Source of the DNA: Halolamina sediminis
GTDB lineage: Archaea; Halobacteriota; Halobacteria; Halobacteriales; Haloferacaceae
NCBI RefSeq assembly: GCF_001282785.1
Contig: NZ_CVUA01000001.1
Location: 1,922,001 to 1,986,000 of the forward strand
Length of the DNA stretch: 64,000 bases
Direction: 5' to 3'
How positions within the stretch are numbered: the first letter of the stretch is position 1; the number at the start of each line of letters is the position of its first letter. The notes under the pieces were generated by a model. It was not told where the DNA came from. It saw only the letters and a program-made list of their open reading frames with translations, and did no database searches. Made by a program: the position numbers and the translations under genes. This document shows positions 21,502-24,037 of this stretch, in pieces.

Positions 21502-21870
21502 GTGGACGAAGCGCTGCTCCAGCGCCGGCAGGTCGCGGTGTACGCCGTCGCAGTGCTGTTCGCGGCCGCCGTCGGCCCCAACCGTCCAGCGGCAGCGCCG
21601 ACCCTCGAACGCCTGATCGCCCGGAAACGCTACGAGTTCGACTACGTACCCCTGGTGGCGAACCTCCTCGAACTCGTCCCCGTGCGCGACGAGGAGGAGC
21701 GGCAGGTCGTGCTGAAAGCCGTCAACTACTACGACGAGGGGATGACGCCGTTCGACGCGCTCCACGCGGCGACGGTGGAGACACGAGGGATGGGTGTCCT
21801 CTCCTCCCAGAACGACTACGACGGGATCGAGGTCGAACGGGTCCTACTCGAACCAACCGACGAGGAGTAG
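21502..21870 (+). pseudogene. Decayed VapC (PIN-domain) copy
   Basis: From about 21616 to the stop this region encodes a near-copy of the intact VapC at 23170-23556 (ARKRYEFDYVPLVANLLELV..., ending LEPTDEE in both). The N-terminal third is ruined: where the intact gene has YVETDFLLALAKD, this copy reads YAVAVLFAAAVGP, losing the acidic catalytic residue, and about 18 residues are missing before the conserved part. There is no antitoxin gene in front and no clear start. It is most likely a dead paralogue. Confidence 0.8.
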
Positions 21871-21890: not shown

Positions 21891-22699
21891 TCATCCCCCA
21901 CCGCGAACGACGTGGCCGTACTTCAACAGGCTCACGAACACGCCCCCACCGACCGCGTTCCCGACAGTCGAGAACGCGAGGAACGTGACGTAGTCGAGCA
22001 CCGTTATCTCGGCGGTGAGAAACAGCCCGAACAGCACCTCGACGTTGCCCGCGATCGAGTGCGGAAGGTGGAGAACACCGATCGAGGCGGTGACGAGCCA
22101 GATGATGAGCAGGCGGCTGGTGGTCTCCTTCGCGGCGGTTATCAGCCACGCCAACAGGCCCATGAGCCACCCCGCGAGGATGCCCGCAACGAACAGCCAT
22201 CCGGGCCCGTGAGAGACCATCTTTCGAGCGATGGCGACGAACGACTCCGGGCTCGCGACCCCGAGTTCGGCATCAACACGACGACGAACGCGGTGAACAC
22301 TGCGCCGCCAGCGATGTTGCTGACCCAGATCAACCCCCAGAGCCGACCTAACTTCCCGAGCGACTCTCGGTTGTCGAGGACGGGCATCACCGCGAGCGTC
22401 GTGTGTTCGGTGAACAGCTCCGAGCGCGCGATGATGACGAAGATGAACCCGACGGAGTACGCACTCGCCAGTAGTAGCTCCGTCCCGAGATCACCGTACC
22501 CGCCGTCGCTGACCGTGAGCAGGACCGCCATCAGCAGCGGCCCGAACCCGATATCGAGACCCGCGGAGAACCCCGACAGGAGGAGTCCAGTCGTTCCCCG
22601 CTCCATCTCGTGCTGGGCGGATTCGATCACCGATTAGAGGATCTCCGGTGCCGTGGACTGCTCTCCGGAGATCTCTACATCGGTATCTGAGTCGCCCAC
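21891..22699 (-). pseudogene. Formate/nitrite transporter (FNT) family gene, broken
   Basis: Two adjacent frames together encode an FNT-family channel: ERGTTGLLLSGFSAGLDIGF ... IARSELFTEHTTLAVMPV ... GLIWVSNIAGG, then after a frameshift AWLITAAKETTSRLLIIWLV ... LPHSIAGNVEV. Loss of one G in a CCGG run at about 22268-22271 explains the shift (restoring it gives LMPELGVASPES). An in-frame TAA at 22634-22636 also interrupts an upstream reading that runs on as STAPEIL-stop-SVIESAQ. Two independent lesions make a true pseudogene more likely than a sequencing error. Confidence 0.8.
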
Positions 22700-22792: not shown

Positions 22793-22831
22793 TTATCGGC
22801 TTCCCCGCTGTTCGACCTTGTTCAAATAGAT
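22793..22831 (-). repeat. Remnant of a chorismate mutase gene 3' end
   Basis: Read on the minus strand this encodes IYLNKVEQRGSR followed by TAA, matching the end of the intact chorismate mutase gene (IELNKVEQRESR, stop) about 0.95 kb away in the same orientation. Sixteen bases (TGTTCGACCTTGTTCA on the plus strand) are identical at 22809-22824 and 23763-23778, while several synonymous positions differ. The pair brackets the vapBC module as direct repeats. Confidence 0.7.
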
Positions 22832-22927
22832 GAAATACACTATGCACACTACTGAGCTGTTTTGATTGAAACCATCAACTACTCGATAGTGGTAAGATTC
22901 TTTGTCTGTGGTATCGTACTCACCTCT

Positions 22928-23173
22928 ATGTCAGCAGAGACGGATGGACAGGGACGGCTGTACATCCCAAAAGAGGTGCGCGAGAAGTACGGCCAGAAGT
23001 ATCACATCGTTATGTACGAGGACAGAATCGAGTTGATTCCGGTCGCGGACGACCCACTTGCCGCGGTCCGCGAGGCGGCAGGCCAGCTTCACGATGCATC
23101 AGTTGAGGAAATTCGAGAGGACATCGAGGCGGAGGCGAAAGACGAGGCTGAGGAAGCCGGCGGCGATAGATGA
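22928..23173 (+). CDS. AbrB/SpoVT-type antitoxin (VapB-like)
   Basis: The 81-residue protein opens MSAETDGQGRLYIPKEVREK, the swapped-hairpin AbrB fold (residues about 1-45), which binds its own promoter DNA. A helical, acidic C-terminus follows (EEIREDIEAEAKDEAEEAGG) that would wrap around the toxin. ATG 22928 starts the domain; an ATG 22 codons upstream would add an unlikely hydrophobic extension. The stop overlaps the toxin ATG by 4 nt (ATGA), typical of co-translated toxin-antitoxin pairs. Upstream DNA (22750-22927) is noticeably AT-richer than its surroundings. Confidence 0.88.
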   Translation: MSAETDGQGRLYIPKEVREKYGQKYHIVMYEDRIELIPVADDPLAAVREAAGQLHDASVEEIREDIEAEAKDEAEEAGGDR

Positions 23174-23556
23174 CGGTGTACGTCGAGACGGATTTCCTGC
23201 TCGCACTCGCCAAAGATACTGATTGGTTGCAGGACACCGCTGAGGACGCTCTCGGCGAGTACGACGTCGAAACGTCACCGTTCTCGTATCTCGAACTTCT
23301 CCTCGCCCGAGAACGCTACGAGTTCGACTACGTTCCGCTGGTGGCGAACCTGCTCGAACTCGTCCCTGTGCGGAACGAGGAGGAGAAACAAGTAGTTCTG
23401 AAAGCTGTCAACTACTACGACGAGGGAATGACGCCGTTCGACTCCTTCCACGCGGCGACTGCGGAAACGCGAGGGATGGACGTACTCTCCTCTGAGAAGG
23501 ACTACGAAGATATCGAGGTAGAACGAGTCCCACTCGAACCAACTGACGAGGAATGA
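23170..23556 (+). CDS. vapC: PIN-domain toxin (VapC-like ribonuclease)
   Basis: The 128-residue protein is a PIN-domain endoribonuclease of the type II VapBC class: MTVYVETDFLLALAKD carries the first acidic residue (D8), SPFSYLELLLARERY the second (Glu), and EGMTPFDSFHAATAETRGMDVLSSEKDY the third and fourth acidic positions. Such toxins cut tRNA or rRNA when free of antitoxin. It overlaps the AbrB-type antitoxin gene. A decayed copy lies 1.7 kb upstream, and the module sits against the chorismate mutase 3' end. Confidence 0.9.
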   Translation: MTVYVETDFLLALAKDTDWLQDTAEDALGEYDVETSPFSYLELLLARERYEFDYVPLVANLLELVPVRNEEEKQVVLKAVNYYDEGMTPFDSFHAATAETRGMDVLSSEKDYEDIEVERVPLEPTDEE

Positions 23557-23746
23557 CTCAGGACGGAGGAGATAGTCCCAGCTGAACGACGCGTGGACTC
23601 GTAGTGGTTGTCGTATCCCGTGTGCAACAGACTTGTGTCGAATCTTCCGCCTGCTCATCAAGTCTGAAATTTCGTATGGTGGCGTCGAGAGTCGACCCAG
23701 CCTCACTAATACGCAGTTAGAAGCTCTGAAACAGTCGTCCGTACGC
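23557..23746. other. Gap between vapC and chorismate mutase
   Basis: No gene is seen. At 23643-23660 the plus strand reads IFRLLI in a frame that resembles the chorismate mutase segment AIFRLLIEL but on the opposite strand (16 of 18 bases), possibly a scrap of an inverted copy or chance. Confidence 0.4.
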
Positions 23747-24037
23747 CTACCGGCTCTCTCTTTGTTCGACCTTGTTCAGTTCGATCAGCAGCCGGAAGAT
23801 CGCCTTCACGAGGTTCGAGTCCACGTCGAATCGCTCGGCGTTCTCGCCGGCGCGGTCCATCACCGCCTGCTCCTGATCCTCGTCGGTGGTCGGGAGCCCC
23901 TGTTCTTCCTTCACGTCGGCAATGGTGTCCGCGACGTAGGTGCGCTGGGCGATGAGCTCGACCAGTTCGCGGTCGATCTGCTGGATCTCCTCGCGCAGTT
24001 CCTCCAGGGTCATGTCGTCGGGTGTGCGTTCGCTCAT
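23747..24037 (-). CDS. aroQ: Chorismate mutase (AroQ class)
   Basis: The 96-residue all-helical protein converts chorismate to prephenate for Phe/Tyr synthesis. TLEELREEIQQIDRELVELIAQRTYVADTIADVKEEQGLP shows the AroQ signature with the active-site Arg/Lys (R in the first helix, K in DVKEEQG), and the C-terminal helix SNLVKAIFRLLIELNKVEQ completes the fold. ATG overlaps the shikimate kinase stop by 4 nt, so both form one unit. The last codons are duplicated beyond the vapBC module. Confidence 0.93.
   Translation of the reverse strand: MSERTPDDMTLEELREEIQQIDRELVELIAQRTYVADTIADVKEEQGLPTTDEDQEQAVMDRAGENAERFDVDSNLVKAIFRLLIELNKVEQRESR

Follow-up and report, generated by a model that had tools for sequence, protein, structure and literature searches.

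The window, a stretch of 64,000 nucleotides of the Halolamina sediminis genome (G000; 2.84 Mb in one contig), contains an intact chorismate mutase gene, aroQ, on the minus strand (Table 1). The gene ends at 23782–23747 with GAACTGAACAAGGTCGAACAAAGAGAGAGCCGGTAG, encoding ELNKVEQRESR*, and a second copy of this end is found downstream on the same strand at 22828–22793, where TATTTGAACAAGGTCGAACAGCGGGGAAGCCGATAA encodes YLNKVEQRGSR*. The 16-mer TGTTCGACCTTGTTCA is present in both, at 22809 and 23763, in direct orientation and 954 bp apart, and at no other place in the window. The best match to the aroQ tail in the 5 kb downstream was 26 of 36 nt, compared to a maximum of 22 and a mean of 18.9 for 200 shuffled tails. 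This copy was the sole extra core (that is, copy of the final 36 nt of the gene) in the 19.7 kb downstream of the gene, and there was none on the opposite strand.

The two gene ends enclose an AbrB-like gene and a PIN-domain gene, which overlap by 4 nt. This order, with the PIN toxin gene immediately following that of a small DNA-binding antitoxin, is the arrangement of a VapBC pair, with only a weak match for the AbrB-type antitoxin, whose homologues on plasmids are annotated as AbrB/MazE/SpoVT. The GC content between the copies is 0.50–0.58, versus 0.61–0.75 in the flanks. Thus, the direct repeats about 0.95 kb apart with 16 shared bases, the gene pair and the AT-richer DNA between them all stood up as given in the preliminary description. 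Among the PF00589 integrase matches listed for the genome, none fell inside the window; the nearest were ≈26 kb beyond either end.

Table 1. Positions of the aroQ gene, the gene-end copies and the enclosed cassette in the window.
Feature	Position	Strand	Basis
aroQ, chorismate mutase, 96 aa; intact target gene	23747..24037	-	PF01817, 72 bits; TIGR01791 (CM_archaeal), 69.0, cut-off 66.95
Putative hybrid attachment core (attL-like) at the aroQ 3' end	23747..23782	-	Core comparison
Displaced copy of the aroQ 3' end; putative distal attachment core (attR-like)	22793..22828	-	Position-weight score 37.5
Predicted 7-nt overlap TGAACAA in the distal core	22818..22824	-	Conserved core positions 5–11; aroQ counterpart at 23772–23778
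Distal cassette arm, adjoining the core	22829..22860	-	32-nt position conserved across cassettes with non-homologous cargo
vapB-like antitoxin, AbrB-type DNA-binding protein, 81 aa	22928..23173	+	Weak TIGR01439 match, E = 1.9e-4, below cut-off
vapC-like PIN-domain toxin, 128 aa	23170..23556	+	PF01850, 34.1 bits, over cut-off
Proximal cassette end, directly after the aroQ stop	23687..23746	-	Common to cassettes in L066, L083, L109, L137 and L138

The preliminary description had proposed that an empty site in a relative should join aroQ directly to the sequence now at 22793 and to its left. Such a site was found in another genome of the genus (G006), in which 161 of 197 positions of the flank and 239 of 254 of the aroQ body were identical to the window over the junction, while the window sequence directly after aroQ aligned poorly (110/158). 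The locus thus has both a direct repeat of the gene end on the far side and an empty site among relatives.

Two further observations concern the DNA beyond the distal copy. A formate/nitrite transporter gene at 21891–22630 is broken into two frames (profile positions 6–124 and 143–239), and its upstream reading has a stop where that of G006 stays open; it looks like either a pseudogene or a sequencing frameshift. Past this remnant, at 21604–21866, lies another copy of vapC, which is truncated and shares 85% identity with 23290–23552. No core was detectable beside it, and it is possibly the remnant of an older cassette.

Cassettes downstream of aroQ in the Halobacteriales

The preliminary description had also suggested searching other genomes for cargo next to aroQ 3' ends, and this search was productive. 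Scoring with a position-weight matrix built from the 36-nt aroQ tail detected 26 further copies in the flanks downstream of 52 sampled loci, and none on the opposite strand of the same flanks. In a set of 105 aroQ loci, which includes loci picked for having several matches, there were 140 extra cores, all on the aroQ strand and none on the opposite strand; one genome was counted twice in this total, and the later steps therefore refer to 137 cassettes. Some loci had arrays of four to five copies. Prevalence was estimated solely from the unselected first sample, in which 18 of 48 aroQ genes had a tail copy matching at least 25 of 36 nt within 4 kb, compared to 4 of 609 control genes; on the opposite strand, the counts were 0/48 and 3/609. 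The repeats are specific to the aroQ end and to its strand. A pattern search matched 375 of 392 genomes of the order, many of them with 2–8 matches, while the reversed-pattern control usually gave none. The window vapBC is one case of a widespread class of arrays, not a unique one.

Cores were also seen without aroQ in the stretch fetched (L117, 9258–9293; L118, 9301–9336; L122, 8418–8453; L123, 8611–8646), possibly representing secondary sites or displaced arrays. In L117, on a 283-kb contig, a vapBC cassette is followed by the start of another cassette. Another locus (L070, genome G019) has two aroQ genes ≈4 kb apart on one contig, with products 88% and 78% identical to the window protein.

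The cassettes, measured between successive cores, had a median length of 1,089 bp; 96 of the 137 were below 1.5 kb and two were above 5 kb. When cassettes with non-homologous cargo were compared, the 16 nt before the core were 0.44 identical (0.265 for shuffled sequence) and the next 16 nt outward 0.34 (0.25 shuffled), and conservation reached background by 49–70 nt from the core. Sharing after the stop was weaker overall (0.31 versus 0.25 over the first 16 nt), but common within several classes.

Core positions 1–3 tracked the distal arm (r = 0.27–0.47). Where a cassette follows aroQ, the 3' half of the gene's core tracked the downstream sequence (Mantel r = 0.144, p = 0.0005) but showed no correlation with the aroQ body (r = 0.004), as would fit the preliminary suggestion that the incoming element brought its own version of the gene end. 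From these correlations, the exchange would be placed between core position 4 and about position 20; its 3' limit is not sharp, since the 3' half of internal cores correlated with both arms (r = 0.15 and 0.22). The half-sites ACCT-GAACA-AGGT were exact in 36 of the 137 copies versus none of 104 aroQ ends. Core positions 5–11, between ACCT and AGGT, were 88–99% conserved in the copies and 97–100% in the aroQ ends, and may correspond to a 7-nt overlap, TGAACAA. Single-strand folding of four cassette sites gave z-scores against shuffles of −3.1 (class A), 0.06 (window), −0.7 (class B) and −0.9 (class C); the class-A site alone folded better than its shuffles, and a hairpin was not seen consistently over these four sites.

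About half of the cassettes (64/137) carried a toxin–antitoxin (TA)-type cluster: AbrB–VapC in 20, MazF/PemK in 16, PIN_2-type in 12, ParE/RelE in 12 and a second VapC in five, with one cassette belonging to two clusters. (Clusters were seeded from homologous ORFs, their sizes are cassette counts, and only representatives were scanned against Pfam.) Other cargo included HTH_10 regulators (10), NicO-type nickel transporters (6), LysE transporters (4), SBF transporters and AhpC/TSA-type redox proteins. Cassettes such as one of 753 bp with TA genes recur with fixed content and length in many genera and at differing array positions, with both arms intact. Among the 20 AbrB–VapC cassettes, mean VapC identity was 89.6% (189 pairs), compared to 79.9% for AroQ. 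The window VapC shares 97% identity with its counterpart in Haloterrigena alkaliphila, a member of another family, while the AroQ proteins are 82% identical. These comparisons show that the cargo has spread horizontally. In three Natrialbaceae megaplasmids (L137, L138 and L139; 162–214 kb), aroQ and a shikimate kinase gene are plasmid-borne and vapBC is directly downstream; two of the three have further cores and several TA pairs.

Larger elements at the aroQ site

A home-made integrase profile gave no match within the small cassettes; the matches that it did give lay outside the arrays or belonged to larger elements. In Halolamina pelagica CDK2 (G002), the aroQ end is altered, a tyrosine recombinase gene lies 0.66 kb downstream, and a core follows at 37.6 kb. 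Its product scored over the cut-off of the Pfam integrase profile PF00589 (39 versus 27.1 bits). Two other genomes had the same arrangement, with cores at 38.0 kb (G370) and 32.5 kb (G371) and enzymes 50–52% identical to that of G002. In G257, an integrase of 38% identity lies ≈0.2 kb from aroQ and the next core ≈61 kb away; this locus had been taken for an array without aroQ, a reading that was overturned when the gene was found ≈61 kb away with the integrase beside it. The G370, G371 and G257 enzymes belong to the same family as that of G002. In G284, an integrase of 59% identity lies ≈11 kb from aroQ. In G244, two cores are 26.6 kb apart, and no integrase was found by profiles in the pieces examined. 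The far cores of G002, G370 and G371 have a class-A arm, as do small cassettes, and the core bounding the G257 element has a class-C arm. Thus, the larger elements of G002, G370, G371 and G257 encode a tyrosine recombinase of their own, whereas the window cassette does not.

The cargo profile scan, which among these four genomes covered G002 alone, identified Hma-type and Lamassu-like defence genes in the G002 element. By eye, ORFs of the G370 element resemble the G002 Hma helicase and DUF499 proteins at their starts.

Cassettes are common, whereas members of the integrase family were seen near aroQ in very few genomes. The window genome had no close member, only a distant XerA-like relative. 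A XerA-like recombinase in L246 (1587–2786), with relatives in all 345 complete haloarchaeal genomes searched, has YLRGD in place of the usual LGH motif, a feature that it shares with the aroQ-side integrase. Three early integrase matches were discarded, two (L073 and L200) belonging to another family and one (L198) lying ≈10 kb from aroQ. Concerning a possible viral source, two short peptide patterns were scanned against 50,697 phage records and the viral contigs, and neither set yielded a relative of the integrase. The sole exact match of the core pattern in a viral contig (L116) was without aroQ, had a low score and was rejected.

Integration at the aroQ end and its alternatives

Site-specific integration at aroQ is well supported by these data. 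We consider it likely, with a probability of roughly 0.7, that the aroQ 3' end is an attachment site for a tyrosine recombinase and that the window vapBC is a non-autonomous cassette, probably mobilised in trans. The system would be widespread in the Halobacteriales. The site carried by a cassette would itself be an aroQ-like 3' end, made up of a ≈32-nt arm followed by nACCTGAACAAGGT..., the last codons and the stop. Recombination with the aroQ end would insert the cassette and give aroQ a new functional tail, while the old tail would be shifted to the far side and left as a partial direct repeat. Repeated insertion would lead to arrays, with the newest cassette probably next to aroQ, and excision would presumably release circles. 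The small cassettes, including the 954-bp vapBC cassette of the window, would have no recombinase of their own and most likely move when larger elements at the same site supply the aroQ-specific integrase. The preliminary description had allowed for a recombinase that was lost or acts in trans, consistent with small cassettes in which no integrase was found and larger elements at the same site that have one. Counting against the tyrosine recombinase reading are the rarity of the integrase family near aroQ, the lack of a close member in the window genome and the blurred 3' limit of the exchange.

We considered the possibility that the cassettes are moved by a host XerA-like recombinase, as Acinetobacter dif modules are by XerC/XerD. 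A XerA-like distant relative of the aroQ-side integrase was found in all 345 complete haloarchaeal genomes searched, the window copy being closest to archaeal XerA (120 bits, cut-off 220), and such an enzyme would account for arrays in genomes without a dedicated integrase. However, dedicated integrases adjoin the same core, their elements have the same arm, and nothing in these data ties XerA to the core sequence. We therefore regard a role for XerA as unlikely.

Somewhat less likely again, the small cassettes would not be mobile at all; they would be what deletions have left of larger elements that carried an integrase, inserted at aroQ and then decayed. Remnants of such enzymes do exist: an integrase C-terminus 58% identical to the G002 enzyme lies 1.2 kb downstream of aroQ in G024 (L090), and broken integrase pieces adjoin a core in G133 (L123). 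Decay is difficult to reconcile, however, with the recurrence of cassettes of fixed content and length in many genera with intact arms at both ends, and the two large elements whose cargo was examined carry other genes (Hma, Lamassu-like) than the cassettes do.

Haloarchaea recombine readily (PMC11078007) and the window core shares 16 nt, so that aroQ ends might have recombined through homology or microhomology when DNA was exchanged, producing the repeats with no dedicated recombinase. We find this very improbable, as it leaves unexplained the conserved arms outside the aroQ homology, the half-sites found in the copies but absent from aroQ, and the restriction to aroQ. Taken by itself, one 38-nt pair with 76% identity is weak evidence, which would speak for a chance match or a simple tandem duplication of the gene end; both are refuted by the strand count of 140 to 0, the excess in aroQ over control genes (18/48 versus 4/609) and the empty site.

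The tyrosine recombinase reading can be extended to a gene-cassette capture platform of the Halobacteriales that operates without an integron integrase, with aroQ as the receiving site, cassettes of ≈1 kb exchanged across families, and the tyrosine integrase of defence-bearing elements acting in trans. We give this broader proposal even odds.

Relation to known systems

In bacteria, cassette arrays are one of the main ways in which genes are gained. If our reading is correct, the aroQ arrays would be an independent solution to gene capture across an archaeal order, rich in TA genes and anchored on an amino-acid biosynthesis gene. They would then provide a defined place to seek accessory genes of haloarchaea and natural test sites for an archaeal recombinase.

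As in integrons and CALINs, small promiscuous cassettes are arrayed at one place, TA genes are common, and the recombinase is often absent from the array. Unlike in these systems, the site is a gene end rather than an attI beside intI, and an attC-like fold was not seen consistently among the four sites folded. The integrons reported in Archaea rest on IntI and attC, in a text without mention of haloarchaea (PMC9668308). None of 23 array- or element-bearing genomes had an IntI match (TIGR02249) over 265 bits (best 45.9), in a search without a positive control, as the 14 control genomes also gave none.

The Acinetobacter pdif (dif) modules are likewise small and recombinase-less, with frequent TA genes and a recombinase acting in trans, but they are plasmid-borne and have XerC/XerD pdif sites in alternating C and D modules (PMC13141974). 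In the aroQ cassettes, all sites have one orientation, aroQ is chromosomal or on a megaplasmid, and the foremost candidate enzyme belongs to a dedicated integrase family. Cassette chromosome elements of the SCC type sit at the 3' end of rlmH (orfX) and use large serine recombinases. The aroQ cassettes, in contrast, are mostly ≈1 kb, with a tyrosine recombinase as their candidate enzyme. The SCC elements, and the ECC elements at the same gene end (PMC6222049), resemble the aroQ cassettes in being tandem elements that restore the end of one conserved gene, some without a recombinase.

The preliminary description had regarded a TA cassette with the protein-coding chorismate mutase gene as its landing site as new. 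Integration at protein-coding genes is already known for other genes in archaea, since the portions consulted of two reports on archaeal integrated elements describe integration at the 3' ends of other protein-coding genes by a tyrosine integrase with a short core (PMC6563490, PMC8371274). There, too, the last codons and stop are replaced by those of the element, but these portions concern single large elements at other genes, with no cassette array or aroQ described. For aroQ itself, our literature search on aroQ or chorismate mutase with an integrase or attachment site, partial in its coverage, found no description of such cassettes. The aroQ arrays look like an archaeal counterpart, hitherto undescribed, of the gene-cassette arrays of bacteria.
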